Positions 20,848-28,577 of a DNA stretch of 50,659 bases are shown here, piece by piece. Position numbers and translations under genes: made by a program. The notes under the pieces were generated by a model, which searched no databases, had not been told where the DNA came from, and saw only the letters and a program-made list of their open reading frames with translations. Numbering within the stretch: the stretch's first letter is position 1; the number at the start of each line of letters is the position of its first letter. The stretch is from Actinomycetota bacterium (GTDB lineage: Bacteria > Actinomycetota > Acidimicrobiia > Spongiisociales > UBA4744): the NCBI GenBank assembly GCA_013152275.1, contig JAADGS010000057.1:1-50659 (forward strand), written 5' to 3'.

Positions 20848-22000
20848 GTGGATCTCCCTTTCTGGTTCGGACATCGGCTCGAGAGAATCGAAGCTTCGTC
20901 ACCCCGGCAGGCCATCGGCCATGTCGCTGGAGCATCGACTTCACACACTAGGACGCTGTTGATCTAATGCCCGTGGCGGTCGCGATCATGAGCGTCTCGT
21001 GTCGGATTGCGCCACATACGGCAAGAGTTTGCTGCGAATCGTGAGTTGTCGGATGCGGCGGCGTCGTGTCGCCGGTGTGCGTTCTCGACCGATCGGATCG
21101 CTCAGGATTGCGTCTCGGAGTTGTGTCCACGGACGTCGTGTCAGCGGCCCGTTGAGGGTGCGTCCTTTGGGTGATCACCGCACTGGTCCCACAGGGGCGC
21201 GTAACCGGCCGTGTGAGGTCTGTGGTGACCAACGACAGGGTGGCCTGTGGGTGAAGAGCGAGCAGTTCGAGAGTGGCGGGAATGATGTGTTGCGCGAGAT
21301 GGTGCGCAGTTTCGCCGGGGGCTTGATGTCAGTCGAGGCCAATGCGGTGTGTGACGCGCCTCATGCCTTCCAGGTTGTACACGGTGTTCTCTCAGGGCAA
21401 GGAATGCGCCGGTGTGTGAGAAGATGTCCCCGGTAAAGCAGCCGCCAGGGCTTCCGTCCGGCAGCGACGACACGGTGGGTCGGAGGGCAGTTCGAGGCGA
21501 GCGCCATCGCCGTCACCAGGAGTCTGGATCCCACATTTCTGGCACCTTGGCCGGCAACGTTCGTGGTGTCGAGAGACTACTCGGGTTGTCGTTGACGAAG
21601 ATGTCAAGGGTCACCGAGCCGGCCTCGTCTCTTCGCTCGACTGCCTGCCGCCGGGACGATCGCCTATCAGCGTGGCGGGTTTTGCGATCCCCGACGCACC
21701 CGACGGACCGCATCGCGATCTTTCCGGAGCGTTTCCTCGCTGGTATCCTGAATTCGAGGTGATGAGGCCCGCCTAGATGCCGCGCAGCGGCTGATGGCTT
21801 CTAACGGACGACTGTTTGGAAGCTGATGGCGAGCGATAACCACCTCGGACCCGATTCGATATCCCTGATAGCTGCTGCACCGGGTCGGCGCGTCGTCGTG
21901 GCGGCGAAGCCTTGCACCTGGTTGTGCGACGGAGATCTTCGGTCGCCCGTCGACGTTGCTCTCATCCCTTCGGCATCTCTCGAGAAGGACGGTTCGCCAG
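20848..22000. other. 1.15-kb stretch without a confident gene
   Basis: No gene here convinces me. Open frames on both strands overlap one another between about 20950 and 21470. One minus-strand frame (20986-21174) reads as a plausible basic helical C-terminus (PWTQLRDAILSDPIGRERT) but has no start codon and is preceded by an in-frame stop, so a decayed gene or mobile-element remnant is possible. The right part should hold the promoter of the MutS-like pair; I could not pin one down. Confidence 0.4.
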
Positions 22001-23533
22001 GTGCAGTTTCATAGCATTCTCTTTGAGCAGCCTGCGGACCGTGTCGACGGCGATGCGCAAGATGTGCCCTCGTCCTTCCGAGACTTGAACCTCGATCAGG
22101 TCCTGGAGTCGATGGTCGAGGGTCGGGAGGAGTATCGCCTGGAAGCGTTCTTCTACTCGCCGCTGACCGCCGCCGAGCCTGTGCTCTATCGGCACGAAAC
22201 TCTGCAGGATCTCGAGAAGAAAGAGATCCTCGACTCCGTTACAGACTTCTCCGAGAGCATGCGGAGGGTGCGAGCCCATCTGGGTCGGGCTGCAAAGCTG
22301 CGCCACAAGTACGAGACGGAGCGCTGGTTTCTGGACGCGGCCGAAACGTATCTGGCCGCCGTGAACACCTTGAAAGAGAAACTCGCGCTCTGCGAGCTCG
22401 GCTCCCGCGCCTTGATGGGGCTCCACGAGTATCTGGAAGCCTATGTCCTTTCGCCTTACTTTTCGTCGTTCGCAGCCGAGACGCAGAAGGTGAAGGACGA
22501 GCTCGCTTCGGTCGTGTACCGCGTCCATATCAGGGGGAGTCGCGTCGAAGTCAGTCCCTACGGCGGCGAGCCGGATTACACACCCGAGGTGGAGCAGACA
22601 TTCGCGAAATTCCGGCAGGGCGATGTCGAGGACTACACGGTCAGATTTGTGGACAGGGCCGGGATGAACCACATCGAAGCGCAGATCCTCGACCTGGTCG
22701 CCCGGCTGAATCCAGCTGTTTTCGGGGCTCTCGACGACTACTGCGTTCGCCATGAAACGTTCCTGGACGACACGATCGTTCGATTCGAGCGAGAGGTCCA
22801 GTTCTACGTGGCGTATCTGGAGTTCATCGAGCGCTTCAAGGCGGCGGGATTGCCTTTCTGCTATCCGCAGGTGTCTTCCCGATCGAAAGATATCAGCGTC
22901 CGTGGGGCGTTCGATGTGGCACTGGCCAACACGCTCGTGCCTGGTGAGCGGGTGGTGTGCAACGACTTTCACCTCGAGGGGACCGAGCGAATCTTGGTGG
23001 TAACCGGGGCCAACCAGGGCGGCAAGACGACATTCGCCCGAATGTTCGGCCAGTTGCACTATCTGGCGAGTCTGGGTTACCCCGTACCGGGTAGTGAGGC
23101 GCGTCTCTTCTTGCCGGACCAGATCTTGACGCACTTCGAGCGGGAGGAGGATATCGAGACCTTGCAGGGGAGGCTGGAGAGCGACCTCGTGAGGATTCGT
23201 GACATTCTTCAACGAGCCACGAGCAGCAGCGTCGTGATCATGAACGAGTTGTTCAGTTCCACCACCGTGAAGGATGCGCTGGTCCTTATTGCGGCAGTGA
23301 TGAGCCAGATCATGGAACTCGGCGTCCTGGGCGTGTGTGTCACGTTCTTGGACGAGATCGCTTCTCTCGGCGAGAGCACGGTCAGCATGGTGAGCATGGT
23401 GGATGCCGAGGATCCGTCGGTGCGCACGTACAAAGTTGTCAGACGGCCTGCCGATGGACGCGCCTACGCCGTGGCGCTTGCCGCGAAGTACGGGCTGACC
23501 TACCCGCAGCTGAGAGGGCACGTGACATCGTGA
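22001..23533 (+). CDS. Divergent MutS-like ATPase, first of a tandem pair
   Basis: The 510-residue product has a helical N-terminal part (about 1-320) resembling the MutS core/lever domains and a C-terminal MutS-type ABC ATPase. There is no mismatch-recognition domain I. Walker A is TGANQGGKTT (about 334-343) rather than the usual TGPNMAGKST. Walker B is VVIMNEL, with Asn415-Glu416 where MutS has Asp-Glu. The signature is FSSTT. The position of the MutS switch histidine is Phe449 (VTFLDE). GTG 22001 was chosen because QFHSILF starts the conserved region; GAAGGA lies about 11 bases upstream. The stop overlaps the partner as GTGA. Cellular role unknown. Confidence 0.85.
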   Translation: MQFHSILFEQPADRVDGDAQDVPSSFRDLNLDQVLESMVEGREEYRLEAFFYSPLTAAEPVLYRHETLQDLEKKEILDSVTDFSESMRRVRAHLGRAAKLRHKYETERWFLDAAETYLAAVNTLKEKLALCELGSRALMGLHEYLEAYVLSPYFSSFAAETQKVKDELASVVYRVHIRGSRVEVSPYGGEPDYTPEVEQTFAKFRQGDVEDYTVRFVDRAGMNHIEAQILDLVARLNPAVFGALDDYCVRHETFLDDTIVRFEREVQFYVAYLEFIERFKAAGLPFCYPQVSSRSKDISVRGAFDVALANTLVPGERVVCNDFHLEGTERILVVTGANQGGKTTFARMFGQLHYLASLGYPVPGSEARLFLPDQILTHFEREEDIETLQGRLESDLVRIRDILQRATSSSVVIMNELFSSTTVKDALVLIAAVMSQIMELGVLGVCVTFLDEIASLGESTVSMVSMVDAEDPSVRTYKVVRRPADGRAYAVALAAKYGLTYPQLRGHVTS

Positions 23534-25041
23534 AGGTCTACCTCATGCACAGGGATCAAGACTTCGACGCGCAAGCGGAGTTTCCGTCGAACGCGGAGGA
23601 CCTGTCGCAAGATCTCGGGTTGGACACGCTGTTCGATGCCATGGCCGGCGACGACTCTTTTGTGCTCGGTATTGTGAAGAGGGCCATCTTGTCGAGCCTC
23701 GTCGATCCGGATGCGATTGTCTACCGGCAGGACGTCCTGAGAGATTGTCTGAACCATCCCTCGGTCGTGAGGGAGCTTTACGACGTCGCCGTGGGCGTGA
23801 TCGAGGCCGAGAGGAAGGTCTTTTGGGGTCTGTCCAGGGATTCGCCCGAGAGGATTCTTGCGAGATCTCTGCGCGTGCTCCAGGTCCTCACCAGTTCGCT
23901 CAAGAGACTGAGAGAGATTGCGGATCAGCACGGGGAAGAGTTCCGGTCCGAAGGTTTTGTGCGGTTCTTCGGGATGCTCGAGGCCGAGTTGACGGACGAG
24001 TACCTGAACACCGTCGATTTTCATCTGCGCGAGCTGACGTTTCCACGCGGCGTTCTGATCAGCGCCAAACTCGGCCAGGGAAACGTGGGTACTCACTACG
24101 TGCTCCGACAACCGTCGAAACAGAGTTGGACCGAGTGGCTCTTCGGTGGACACAACCGCTCCAAGTTCAGTTTCGTCATTCCTGAGAGAGACGACAACGG
24201 CTTCAAAGCTCTGGCGGAGCTGACGAACAAGGGGATCAATCGTGTCGCCGGCGCGGTTGCACAGTCGGCAGATCACGTCCACAGCTTTGTTGCCGTGTTG
24301 CGTGACGAACTGGCTTTCTACATCGGTTGTCTCAACCTGCACGAGGAGCTCTCCAAGAAGGAGGAGCCAACGTGTTTTCCGGTTCCCGTACGCTCGGAGG
24401 AGGTCGCGTTCACCACTCGGGGCCTGTACGACATTTGTCTGGCGCTGAATGTGGAAGCGAGAGTGATTGGCAACGATGTGAACGGGGACGGTGAGTCGCT
24501 CGTGATGATCACCGGCGCCAATCAAGGCGGGAAATCGACGTTCTTGAGGAGTGCAGGTCTCGCGCAGCTGATGATGGGTTGCGGCATGTTCGCCCCTGCG
24601 GAGCAACTTCGTATCAGCGTCTCTGCCGGCGTCTTCACGCACTTCGAACGGGAAGAGGATCCGACCATGAGGAGAGGCAAGCTCGAGGAAGAGCTCGAAA
24701 GGATGGAGAAGATCGCCGAGGCGATCACGCCAAGCAGCCTCTTGTTGTGCAATGAGTCGTTCGCCTCGACAAACGAGAGGGAAGGCTCGGAGATCGCGCG
24801 CCAGATCGTACGTGCCCTGTTGGAAAGGGGCGTCAGGATCTTCTTCGTGACCCACATGTTCGACTTGGCGGAGGGTTTCCAACGCCTCGAGGCCGACACC
24901 GCCTTGTTCCTCCGCGCCGAGAGAATGCAGGATGGTCGGCGAACCTTCAGGATGATCGAAGGTGAGCCCCTACCGACGAGCTACGGCGAAGACCTGTATC
25001 GGCGCATCTTCGGCACGTCTCCGAGTGCCGCCGGGGGGTAG
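23530..25041 (+). CDS. Divergent MutS-like ATPase, second of a tandem pair
   Basis: This 503-residue protein shares the architecture of its neighbour: a helical lever-like N-terminus and a MutS ATPase domain, no DNA-mismatch domain. Walker A is TGANQGGKST (328-337), Walker B is LLLCNES with Asn408-Glu409, and the signature is FASTNEREGSEIARQI. Unlike its partner it keeps the switch His (His442 in VTHMFD). Both share THFEREED before Walker B. The start is GTG 23530 within the stop of the first gene, indicating coupled translation and probably a heterodimer. Such paired proteins are known from many genomes but, to my knowledge, lack an established function. Confidence 0.85.
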   Translation: MKVYLMHRDQDFDAQAEFPSNAEDLSQDLGLDTLFDAMAGDDSFVLGIVKRAILSSLVDPDAIVYRQDVLRDCLNHPSVVRELYDVAVGVIEAERKVFWGLSRDSPERILARSLRVLQVLTSSLKRLREIADQHGEEFRSEGFVRFFGMLEAELTDEYLNTVDFHLRELTFPRGVLISAKLGQGNVGTHYVLRQPSKQSWTEWLFGGHNRSKFSFVIPERDDNGFKALAELTNKGINRVAGAVAQSADHVHSFVAVLRDELAFYIGCLNLHEELSKKEEPTCFPVPVRSEEVAFTTRGLYDICLALNVEARVIGNDVNGDGESLVMITGANQGGKSTFLRSAGLAQLMMGCGMFAPAEQLRISVSAGVFTHFEREEDPTMRRGKLEEELERMEKIAEAITPSSLLLCNESFASTNEREGSEIARQIVRALLERGVRIFFVTHMFDLAEGFQRLEADTALFLRAERMQDGRRTFRMIEGEPLPTSYGEDLYRRIFGTSPSAAGG

Positions 25042-25113
25042 GTCAGGTCAGGGTGCCGCGACCAAGGGAACCGTGCACCCTCGAGAAACAGGCGGCACAG
25101 GAACAATGCAGAC

Positions 25114-25151
25114 TGTACATAGATGTCAATTACATATATACTCTACATGTA
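25114..25151 (+). promoter_or_regulatory. padR promoter with overlapping operator repeats
   Basis: TGTACA (25114-25119) and TATACT (25137-25142) are spaced by 17 bases and form a good -35/-10 pair; the start codon is 10 bases beyond, so the message is probably leaderless. Within it lie ATGT-CAATT-ACAT (25123-25135) and the palindrome TACATGTA (25144-25151). TACAT occurs three times. ATGT/ACAT half-sites are typical PadR operators, so autorepression is likely. Confidence 0.7.
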
Positions 25152-25526
25152 ATGCGACGTGGACCTCATCATGGACATCCGGGGCATGGTCACGGACCGG
25201 GCCCTCGGGGTGGCAGGCTTCTCGATGCGGGGCTGCTCCTGCTCATATCGAGAGGCACGTCCCACGGGTACCCGCTGATCGAGGCGATCAGGGAGGATCT
25301 CGGTCTCGACGTTCCCGATGTTGGGGCCGTCTACAGAGCATTACGCCGCCAGGAATCCCAAGGGCTGCTCACCTCGACTTGGGAGACGGGTGCGACGCGA
25401 CCCAGGCGCGTGTACACGATCACACCGGCAGGTCGAGAGGTTCTCGAGATCTGGATGCAGGGTGTAGAGGAGATGCGTGAGGCCTTGGAGCGACTTCTCC
25501 AGGCCTGGAAAGGAGACAAGCAATGA
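25152..25526 (+). CDS. PadR-family transcriptional regulator
   Basis: The 124-residue product has a His/Gly/Pro-rich N-terminal tail (about 20 residues), then the PadR winged helix: LLDAGLLLLISRGTSHGYPLIEAI, VPDVGAVYRALRRQESQGLL, GATRPRRVYTITPAGREVL, and a C-terminal dimerisation helix. The His-rich tail could bind a metal (inference). The start at 25152 is supported by the promoter ending just before it. The frame is open upstream to 25053, but that part would lie ahead of the promoter. The stop overlaps the next gene as ATGA, so the two are co-regulated. Confidence 0.88.
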   Translation: MRRGPHHGHPGHGHGPGPRGGRLLDAGLLLLISRGTSHGYPLIEAIREDLGLDVPDVGAVYRALRRQESQGLLTSTWETGATRPRRVYTITPAGREVLEIWMQGVEEMREALERLLQAWKGDKQ

Positions 25527-25865: not shown

Positions 25866-26744
25866 ATGAGTGACGACGGCACCCAGGAGTCCGCAGCGCA
25901 GCAAAGGGTCGATCATCCGATCCTCAACCAGCAGCGTCTCGGCGGTGACGAGGCTCGACAGAGGAAACCGAAGCTGCCCAAGAAGCTCTACGAAAGCGAG
26001 CTCGCGAGGCTGCAGATCGAACTCGTCAAGCTTCAGGAGTGGATCAAGGCCGAGGGCGTGAAGGTCGTCGTCGTGTTCGAGGGCAGGGACGCGGCCGGCA
26101 AGGGCGGGGTCATCAAACGGATCGCCGAACCACTCAACCCCCGCATCTGTCGCATCGAGGCGCTGGGCACTCCGACCGATCGTGAGAAGACCCAATGGTG
26201 GTTCCAGCGATACGTCGCACGCCTGCCTGCCGCCGGGGAGATGGTGCTGTTCGACCGGAGCTGGTACAACCGGGCCCTCGTCGAGCGCGTGATGGGGTTC
26301 TGCACCGAAGATCAGTATCGCGAGTTCCTGAGGACATGCCCAGAATTCGAACGCATGCTGGTGCGCGCCGGCATCATCCTGATCAAGTACTGGTTCTCGG
26401 TGAGCGACGAGGAGCAGGAGCGCCGGTTCCAGAACCGCATGGAGACACCGACCAAGCGCTGGAAGCTGAGCCCGATGGATCTCGAATCACGGTCCCGCTG
26501 GAGCGAGTATTCGATCGCCAAAGACGTGATGTTCAATCACACCGACATCAAGCAGGCACCCTGGTACGTGGTCAACGCCGACGACAAGAGGCGCGCCCGA
26601 CTCAACACGATCACTCATCTGCTCAGCCTCATCCCCTATGAGGACCTTACGCCCGGCCAGATCGAGCTCCCGCCCCGTCAGCCCGACATCGGCTACATCA
26701 GGCCGCCGCTCAGCGAGCAGACGTTCGTGCCGGAGAACTACTGA
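25866..26744 (+). CDS. ppk2: Polyphosphate kinase 2
   Basis: The 292-residue protein is a PPK2-family phosphotransferase that moves phosphate between polyphosphate and nucleotides. Walker A is GRDAAGKGG (73-81), the Asp-Arg lid motif is LFDRSWYNRA (about 128-137), and KYWFSVSDEEQERRF, MDLESRSRW and PWYVVNADDKRRARLN complete the family pattern. The length fits single-domain class I PPK2, usually favouring nucleoside diphosphates, but class cannot be fixed by eye. ATG 25866 has no ribosome site. It lies 36 bases before the repair-like fusion gene. Confidence 0.93.
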   Translation: MSDDGTQESAAQQRVDHPILNQQRLGGDEARQRKPKLPKKLYESELARLQIELVKLQEWIKAEGVKVVVVFEGRDAAGKGGVIKRIAEPLNPRICRIEALGTPTDREKTQWWFQRYVARLPAAGEMVLFDRSWYNRALVERVMGFCTEDQYREFLRTCPEFERMLVRAGIILIKYWFSVSDEEQERRFQNRMETPTKRWKLSPMDLESRSRWSEYSIAKDVMFNHTDIKQAPWYVVNADDKRRARLNTITHLLSLIPYEDLTPGQIELPPRQPDIGYIRPPLSEQTFVPENY

Positions 26745-26780: not shown

Positions 26781-28577
26781 ATGATCCGGTTCGGTTACTC
26801 GGAACTCCCTGCAAATGGAGACGACGCAGTGTTCCTCGACGGGCTCGTCGCCAAGCGTCACCGGGCGTTCGAATTGGCCTTCATCGAGGAGCTCTCGTGG
26901 AGCGAGCAGCGGTGTCGGCGGTTCGGTGACCTCGCGGCCGAGCGGGATATCCGCCTTTCGATGCATGCTCCGTACTCTGCCGTTCTGACGGTCGCAGACG
27001 AAGAACGCTCGGCGCAGTGCCTGTCCACCATCGAGCGCACGATGAAACTCGCCAAGGCGGCCGGTGCCCGGATCATCTGCGTGCATCTCGGCAACCGTCA
27101 TGGGAGGGACGGGGAGGCGCTCATGGAGTTGGTCTCGGAACGCCTCGAAAGGATCGCTCCGAAGGTCGAGCATCTCGGCGTCGGTCTCGGACTGGAAACC
27201 GCCGGACGCAGCAGCGCCTTCGGAACGCTGGATGACATTGCCTCGCTGGCCTCGAAGTTCTCGTTCGTCCGTCCCTACGTCGACTGGGCGCACCTACACG
27301 CCATCACTCGGGGAGGTCTGGCGGCAAAGGAGGCGTTCCGAGAAGTGCTCGGTTTTCTTCGGGAGCATTTCCCCGGATGGATGATCGACCCGCTGCAGTG
27401 CCAGTTCTCGGAGGTCCGGTTCGGGGAGAAGGGAGAGATTCGTCACGTTCGGTATGGAGAAGGAAGTCTGCGGATCGCCAATCTCGTCGAGGCCGTGCAG
27501 GAGGTGGACATCGGACTGGTCGTCATCTCCGAAGCCCGAGAGCCCGAGAGCACCGACGCGATGGCGCGAGAGCTGCAGCAGATCATGGGGAGACCGGAAC
27601 CGTCCGGCATCGCCAGACGTCTCGGGTCGGGCAGTGTCGAGTTCCCGGTCCCGATCCATGTCGCCCCGTCCGGATCCGGCTTTGCTCCGCTCGGTCTCGC
27701 ACATCCCCTCGTGCTGTCCAAAATCGACAAACCGTTCTTTCCCGACGGGTTCACGAAGGGGGACCTCATCCAATACTACGCGTCGGTCGCCCCGACGCTG
27801 CTGCCCCATCTGGTAGAGCGGGCCATCGTCATGGCGCGCTACCCGGATGGCAGCGAAGGAGAATCGTTCTACGAGAAACAGGCACCCGAGCATCGGCCCG
27901 ACTGGCTCCTGCTCGCCCCCATCTACTCGAAGCATCGTGGAGAGACCATCGAGTTCGTCACCGTCGCGGATCGTGAGGCTCTCATGTGGCTCGCTTCGAT
28001 GGGTTGCATCGAGGTCCATCCATGGCTCAACCGTCTGGGCAATCAAGACCGCCCGGATTTCGCCGTCTTCGATCTCGACCCTTCCGAAGGTGCGACCTGG
28101 GCCCAAGTCGTCGCGGTTGCCAAAGAGCTGAAGGCCACACTCGATCGTCTCGGTCTCGTCGGGCATCTGAAGACGTCTGGGGCCACCGGTCTGCACATCT
28201 ACGTTCCGCTCGACCCCGTGCACGACTATCGGCGGGTGCGAACGTTCGTCGGGACGGTCGGCCGATTGCTGCAGTCGGCGAACCCCGACGACATCACGAT
28301 GGAGTGGCATGTCGCCAAACGGGGGGCCAGGGTGTTCATCGACCACAACCAGAACGCCCCGGGCAAGACGATTGCCTCGGTGTACTCGGTGCGACCCCGC
28401 CGGAGTGCCCCCGTATCGACCCCCATTCTGTGGGAAGAAGTCGACGACGTGCAGCCGGGCGATTTCACGATCGCCACGATCTGGGACCGCCTGCAACGGT
28501 TCGGCGATCTCTTCTCGCCCGTTCTCGCAGGAGGGCAGACGCTCGACGCCGCCGAGGAGGCACTCGGGCTCGGATAG
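26781..28577 (+). CDS. Endonuclease IV-like TIM barrel fused to a LigD-type polymerase/primase domain
   Basis: This 598-residue protein joins two repair domains. Residues about 1-270 form an endonuclease IV-like (xylose-isomerase-like) barrel with probable metal ligands in MHAPYS (His62), VHLGNR (His102), GLETAG, YVDWAHLHA, IRHVRYGEG and ISEARE. Residues about 300-570 are a LigD PolDom (archaeo-eukaryotic primase fold): FFPDGFTKGDLIQYY, FDLDPSE with Asp431/Asp433, KTSGATGLHIYVPL and FIDHNQNAPGKTIASVYSVR. Known relatives excise abasic or damaged ends and fill gaps in non-homologous end joining. No ligase or Ku is in the window. TAGTCT lies 6 bases before ATG 26781, so it may be leaderless. Confidence 0.85.
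   Translation: MIRFGYSELPANGDDAVFLDGLVAKRHRAFELAFIEELSWSEQRCRRFGDLAAERDIRLSMHAPYSAVLTVADEERSAQCLSTIERTMKLAKAAGARIICVHLGNRHGRDGEALMELVSERLERIAPKVEHLGVGLGLETAGRSSAFGTLDDIASLASKFSFVRPYVDWAHLHAITRGGLAAKEAFREVLGFLREHFPGWMIDPLQCQFSEVRFGEKGEIRHVRYGEGSLRIANLVEAVQEVDIGLVVISEAREPESTDAMARELQQIMGRPEPSGIARRLGSGSVEFPVPIHVAPSGSGFAPLGLAHPLVLSKIDKPFFPDGFTKGDLIQYYASVAPTLLPHLVERAIVMARYPDGSEGESFYEKQAPEHRPDWLLLAPIYSKHRGETIEFVTVADREALMWLASMGCIEVHPWLNRLGNQDRPDFAVFDLDPSEGATWAQVVAVAKELKATLDRLGLVGHLKTSGATGLHIYVPLDPVHDYRRVRTFVGTVGRLLQSANPDDITMEWHVAKRGARVFIDHNQNAPGKTIASVYSVRPRRSAPVSTPILWEEVDDVQPGDFTIATIWDRLQRFGDLFSPVLAGGQTLDAAEEALGLG

Follow-up and report, generated by a model that had tools for sequence, protein, structure and literature searches.

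One gene of the window, as we call the whole 50,659-nucleotide stretch that was analysed, encodes a LigD-type repair polymerase joined to a sister domain of endonuclease IV (EndoIV). The fusion is real and conserved and, as far as the literature searched shows, undescribed, since the searches returned no account of a barrel joined to a LigD polymerase domain (PolDom). LigD is the textbook example of a bacterial NHEJ machine, and the debate on whether its polymerase also takes part in BER has so far drawn on pull-downs and double mutants. A natural EndoIV-like fusion that occurs in both domain orders and is kept in a genus without Ku gives direct genetic evidence of a BER role of the PolDom, and provides a single protein in which this second role can be tested. 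The domain make-up, residue conservation, distribution and purifying selection that we describe are established; what the protein does is argued from them.

The gene is an uninterrupted frame of 598 codons from ATG to stop, giving 598 amino acids (Table 1). The domain search that the preliminary description had proposed finds two Pfam domains and nothing else: AP_endonuc_2 (PF01261) at residues 29-260 (77.9 bits, E = 1.3e-21, cut-off 31.1) and LigD_Prim-Pol (PF21686) at residues 325-578 (298.8 bits, E = 4.6e-89, cut-off 27.4), with neither an ATP-dependent ligase nor a phosphoesterase domain. The second half also passes the NCBIfam cut-off for ligD_pol (246.4 against 214.7 bits), and AlphaFold2 (AF2), run on an alignment of 69 orthologues, models the protein with a pLDDT of 93.4 and a pTM of 0.90 (pLDDT 94.7 for the barrel). 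The single 598-residue frame is thus confirmed. Two separate genes, which the preliminary description had named as one outcome that would undo it, are not what we find: in this order 81 genomes carry the same single-frame fusion complete or nearly complete, so that neither chance nor an assembly join can be its origin. Other actinobacterial classes have Pol-first LigD proteins in which the C-terminal part of the linker likewise precedes the PolDom. The gene for polyphosphate kinase 2 (PPK2) just upstream recurs as a neighbour only in genomes G050 and G051 and therefore probably lies outside the system.

Table 1. Features of the fusion gene, its surroundings and its reversed counterpart (window positions unless a locus is named; residue numbers are those of the fusion protein)
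Feature	Position	Strand	Basis or remark
Fusion gene P0001, EndoIV-like barrel plus LigD-type primase-polymerase domain	26781..28577	+	ORF, Pfam, NCBIfam, full-length homologues
EndoIV-like TIM barrel, residues 1-270	26781..27590	+	PF01261 at 29-260, AF2, Foldseek
His62 in HAPY motif, equivalent to EndoIV His69	26964..26966	+	alignment; invariant 69/69
His102, equivalent to EndoIV His109	27084..27086	+	alignment; invariant 69/69
Glu139, equivalent to EndoIV Glu145	27195..27197	+	alignment; invariant 69/69
Asp168-Trp-Ala-His171, equivalent to EndoIV Asp179/His182 motif	27282..27293	+	alignment; D168 69/69, H171 68/69
Gln206, at EndoIV His216 position	27396..27398	+	alignment
Glu219-Ile-Arg-His222, probable counterpart of EndoIV Asp229-Arg-His231 with one residue inserted	27435..27446	+	alignment
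Glu251, end of strand 8, equivalent to EndoIV Glu261	27531..27533	+	strand end, not MAFFT column; invariant 69/69
Linker, residues 271-308	27591..27704	+	alignments, AF2
LigD-type PolDom, residues 309-590	27705..28550	+	PF21686 at 325-578; PDB matches to Prim-PolC and LigD PolDoms
Lys317 and Lys326, aligned with 5'-phosphate-pocket lysines K23 and K35 of Prim-PolC	27729..27758	+	alignment to Prim-PolC
Asp431-x-Asp433, polymerase catalytic metal pair	28071..28079	+	alignment
Asp521, third catalytic carboxylate, DHNQN motif	28341..28343	+	alignment
PPK2, ends 36 bp upstream of fusion gene	25866..26744	+	neighbour gene
Reversed fusion, 600 aa, family f89	L217:7193-8995; L218:2691-4493	both -	genomes small, about 1.5 Mb

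The barrel is a distant sister group of EndoIV that falls under the curated Nfo cut-off. When a profile of 68 barrels is compared with solved structures, the M. tuberculosis EndoIV leads (8e-8), and MJ1311, TTHB071, other EndoIVs and the UV endonuclease (UVDE) all outrank any isomerase; the profile also matches the order's own EndoIV in hhalign (P 96.4%, E = 1.3e-9). Foldseek on the AF2 barrel gives its lowest E-values to D-psicose/tagatose epimerases, but with TM-scores of 0.62-0.70 at 4-5 Å, compared with 0.76-0.79 and an rmsd of about 3.3 Å for EndoIV. An AP-endonuclease-like barrel, as originally proposed, therefore describes the N-terminal half better than a sugar isomerase devoid of endonuclease residues. 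It is nevertheless unlike Nfo in scoring only 28 bits against that profile (cut-off 129.65) and in the very long branch that separates it from the order's own Nfo. The barrels of the MJ1311/TTHB071 type and of CbiR, a cobamide-remodelling phosphodiesterase, are likewise EndoIV-like with weak profile matches (19.6 bits for CbiR, below the NCBIfam cut-off), yet they score lower than EndoIV, and we know of no polymerase partner for either.

The barrel residues are mapped onto the EndoIV residue numbers and metal roles. Seven of the nine zinc-ligand positions are identical (His69, His109, Glu145, Asp179, His182, His231 and Glu261), the HAPY motif is kept, and the H-x-x-x-G-x-G tail is similar. The statement that most metal ligands are in place holds with these seven, the other two positions being changed. 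At the His216 position, 50 of the 69 relatives have His and 19 have Gln, the window's protein and its sublineage among the latter; the Asp229 column is hydrophobic (Ile220), and the preceding invariant Glu219 aligns with the Asp once a one-residue insertion is allowed, which would shift the carboxylate by one residue. Across the 69 sequences H62, H102, E139, D168, H173, E219, H222 and E251 are invariant and H171 varies once. Apart from the two changed positions the residues follow the three-metal pattern of EndoIV rather than that of isomerases, and would presumably serve as metal ligands here too.

The LigD PolDom is intact, as had been suspected. Its best PDB match, by sequence and by fold, is Prim-PolC, whose DNA complex defines the 5'-phosphate pocket and the nucleotide contacts (PMC7442782). 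Aligned with that complex, all three catalytic aspartates (431, 433 and 521), the residues that contact the 2'-OH (H413, T530 and A532) and those at the phosphate tail (S466, H472 and R538) are kept, together with the pocket lysines; position 314 of the pocket is Asn in relatives and Lys in the window's protein. The PolDom trees place the fusions of the order in one clade (support 98/95 and 99/97), beside another that combines the fusions of families f96 and f93, solo PolDoms from family f61 and PolDoms taken from LigD proteins of the Pol-PE-Lig type. Prim-PolC sits apart from the fusions in a clade of ten rows supported at 96/100 and 100/100, and the LigD proteins of the window's own order are also placed elsewhere.

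The fusion is widespread, as the survey suggested in the preliminary description now shows. A scan of genome contigs with the single sequence as query gave no match, and an alignment query then gave 347 relatives. In the window's uncultured order 92 of the 138 genomes encode the fusion (the records bearing names are Acidimicrobiia MAGs). The 81 full or near-full-length copies, the window's own included, cover 540-598 query residues at 47-84% identity, and the remaining matches lie mostly at contig ends or gaps. In the sampled genomes from other orders of the class, the matches listed are to a PolDom alone; in our phylum sample, a second actinobacterial order (families f96 and f93) has the fusion in seven of eight genomes. 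A search with the barrel profile alone adds family f89, where the domain order is reversed, the PolDom (1-291) preceding the barrel (327-596) in one gene, of which two genomes have an intact copy and another a frame-broken one. The f89 PolDom falls outside the joint clade of fusions and Pol-PE-Lig PolDoms, though with weak backbone support, which makes a separate origin of the reversed fusion probable. The same search finds family f97, where the barrel stands alone with no PolDom fused to it. Bacillota have stand-alone barrels that are more distant.

These stand-alone barrels of f97 (L214-L216) and Bacillota have nfo as their nearest NCBIfam profile, at 22-61 bits, and one in Bacillota (L241:2366-3256) adjoins genes for a YqeG phosphatase and an Xaa-Pro peptidase. 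A Bacillota-like barrel gene also lies beside spermidine-synthase- and agmatinase-like genes in a record labelled 'Klebsiella pneumoniae plasmid unnamed2' (L240, NZ_CP061967.1), a sequence that may be foreign or a contaminant rather than a Klebsiella plasmid. In genus g35, G081 and G083 carry a PolDom of the fusion clade without the barrel (L035:940-1947 and L034:936-2270) and have no ATP-dependent ligase or Ku, the barrel apparently having been lost and the polymerase retained. Several irregular copies have simple explanations: the split genes of G001 are an artefact of an N-filled scaffold gap, those of G030 and of G637 (reversed form) are lone cases with intact sisters and probably frameshifts, and the apparent extra N-terminal domain of G479 contains no Pfam domain and is probably an over-extended frame of 1006 amino acids. 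We rejected a phage origin, as the viral contigs and phage collections searched have no relative of the fusion and phage records match the PolDom only, and a defence system, as PADLOC gave no match.

Among the loci read there is no conserved operon partner. PPK2 and thioesterase neighbours are limited to family f1, and a HisA-like gene follows the fusion in 13 loci. At 14 of 49 loci a free-standing 5'-3' exonuclease (PF02739/PF01367) is found on the same strand, 2.6-7.3 kb downstream of the fusion start (e.g., L062:6560-7438), and is possibly a flap-removal partner or merely regional synteny.

The remark that no ligase or Ku is nearby turns out to be an understatement. The whole genome of the window (G000; 3.07 Mb, 100% complete) contains no Ku and no ATP-dependent ligase (PF01068); its only ligase is the NAD-dependent LigA, and it has a single PolDom. 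A canonical EndoIV is encoded here (G000:C27), as in most genomes of the order. The sister genome G050 likewise lacks Ku and ATP-dependent ligase. Across the order, the fusion and Ku go together: in genomes with a completeness of 90% or more, the two occur together in 57, the fusion only in 4, Ku only in 6 and neither in 14 (Fisher p = 5e-8, counting genomes as independent of phylogeny). Counted by genus, 42 have both, 4 the fusion without Ku and 6 neither, while among genera without the fusion 5 have Ku and a LigD-size protein and 4, mostly with incomplete genomes, have Ku only. The LigD-size protein occurs in eight genomes of those five genera, all eight without the fusion. Genomes of the order with Ku thus mostly contain either the fusion with a free-standing ligase or a conventional LigD, and none showed both; G567, in the second order, is an exception with fusion and LigD.

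The Ku loci themselves point the same way. We read 20 of them in fusion genomes. A free ligase, some 320-420 codons long in the complete cases, lies no more than about 2 kb from Ku at 11 of these loci, and a phosphoesterase or PolDom at none, whereas each of the three LigD genomes read combines phosphoesterase, ligase and PolDom in a single protein. The fusion is the sole PolDom match in several genomes with Ku (G007, G044, G047 and G106). It thus behaves as if a LigD had been split and the fusion were its polymerase part. The barrel would then stand in the place of the phosphoesterase missing beside Ku, and may have replaced it.

In the window's genus the gene is under purifying selection even though Ku and the ATP-dependent ligase are gone. 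Comparing G000 with G050, dN/dS is 0.21 for the fusion, 0.13 for the PolDom and 0.31 for the barrel. Because the constraint persists without Ku, a Ku-independent job must exist, which implies BER-like gap repair as the probable activity. The window's own barrel departs from the consensus at 10 conserved positions, the most of the 69 sequences, none of them a proposed ligand, so that it may be drifting or weakened in this genome.

The explanation that we favour, and think somewhat better than even, is that the protein combines a repair polymerase and an end-healing domain in one chain, and in most of the order would be the polymerase and end-processing half of a split LigD. The barrel, with its three-zinc-type site, would bind a nick or break and restore a 3'-OH by removing a 3'-phosphate, a 3'-phosphoglycolate, a terminal ribonucleotide or an abasic sugar; the PolDom would dock on the 5'-phosphate across a short gap and fill it, probably with ribonucleotides, and a separate ligase would seal. 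We infer these catalytic steps and the end-healing substrate from the domains and residues present. In most of the order Ku and the free-standing ATP-dependent ligase would be supplied by separate genes, with the barrel standing in for the LigD phosphoesterase. The loss of both in the window's genus means that single-strand gaps must be its substrate there, in a BER-like manner, with LigA the likely sealer. Published work on EndoIV with Prim-PolC and LigC in mycobacteria (PMC5663958) and on ligD and nfo in B. subtilis (PMC4770248) offers such a role outside Ku-dependent joining. That the domains were joined repeatedly, and in both orders, argues that both activities work on one substrate. Points against this explanation are the sub-threshold Nfo score, the epimerases' lower Foldseek E-values, the changes at the His216 and Asp229 positions, the many departures in the window's own barrel, a Ku association counted without regard to phylogeny, the presence of fusion and LigD together in G567, and the unrelated genes beside unfused barrels. 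A broader claim, which we put forward tentatively and hold to be a little short of even, is that an undescribed EndoIV-sister domain replaced the LigD phosphoesterase across whole actinobacterial orders, giving a split, ligase-free LigD that can serve in end joining with Ku as well as in gap repair without it, and that arose on two or more occasions, as barrel-Pol and as Pol-barrel. If true, the LigD phosphoesterase is replaceable by an unrelated fold.

The protein could instead be a dedicated BER enzyme everywhere, with a barrel that is a genuine AP endonuclease, cutting on the 5' side of abasic sites and passing the resulting 3'-OH on to the PolDom, and with the tie to Ku reflecting only shared ancestry or lifestyle. 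In favour of this, the EndoIV-type site and HAPY loop are kept, and the gene is retained by four genera in which no Ku was detected, including the window's own, where two nearly complete genomes lack Ku and ATP ligase. There are also published precedents for the partnership: EndoIV and LigC co-purify in mycobacteria, where EndoIV is the most efficient end processor in Prim-PolC/LigC repair (PMC5663958), and ligD and nfo mutations are not additive in B. subtilis spores (PMC4770248). However, a canonical EndoIV is already present in this genome and most of the order, the fusion strongly accompanies Ku and excludes a full LigD, and one His and one Asp ligand are changed in the window's protein. 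We regard this account as unlikely, while noting that the distribution points to a split-LigD end-healing role as much as to AP-site repair.

Quite improbable, in our judgement, is that the barrel is no nuclease at all but a sugar-phosphate/nucleotide binding or isomerase-type domain, or else an inactive scaffold, whose role is to regulate or tether the polymerase. The epimerases' Foldseek E-values and the sub-threshold Nfo score would suit such a domain, as would its faster evolution in the window's genus and the phosphomannomutase-like, YqeG or Xaa-Pro peptidase genes that adjoin the unfused f97 and Bacillota relatives. Against this, His62, His102 and H222 match EndoIV zinc ligands, the conserved residues do not vary among the 69 sequences or in the reversed form, and sequence profiles rank EndoIV, MJ1311, TTHB071 and the UV endonuclease above the isomerases.

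Returning to the end-healing polymerase that we favour, its relation to known systems can be stated by domain. With the PolDom of NHEJ LigD (Prim-PolD) it shares a family score above the curated cut-off, the Asp triad, the 5'-phosphate lysines and the nucleotide residues, and its closest relatives in the tree are the Pol-PE-Lig and solo PolDoms of other actinobacterial families. It differs from LigD in having its PolDom behind an EndoIV-like barrel, in lacking phosphoesterase and ligase domains, and in a host without Ku or ATP ligase; that the barrel is not the usual partner of a LigD polymerase, as first noted, is borne out. The mycobacterial Prim-PolC is similar in being a stand-alone, LigD-like short-gap polymerase with EndoIV as end processor (PMC5663958, PMC7442782), whereas the fusion falls outside the Prim-PolC clade, has its end processor covalently attached and resides in a host without LigC. 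By analogy, the fusion resembles a partnership of the EndoIV/Prim-PolC type made covalent.

Elsewhere in the window, positions 21956-25041 encode two consecutive MutS-domain-V proteins (525 and 568 amino acids, with MutS_V as the only match), followed by a PadR regulator at 25053-25526.
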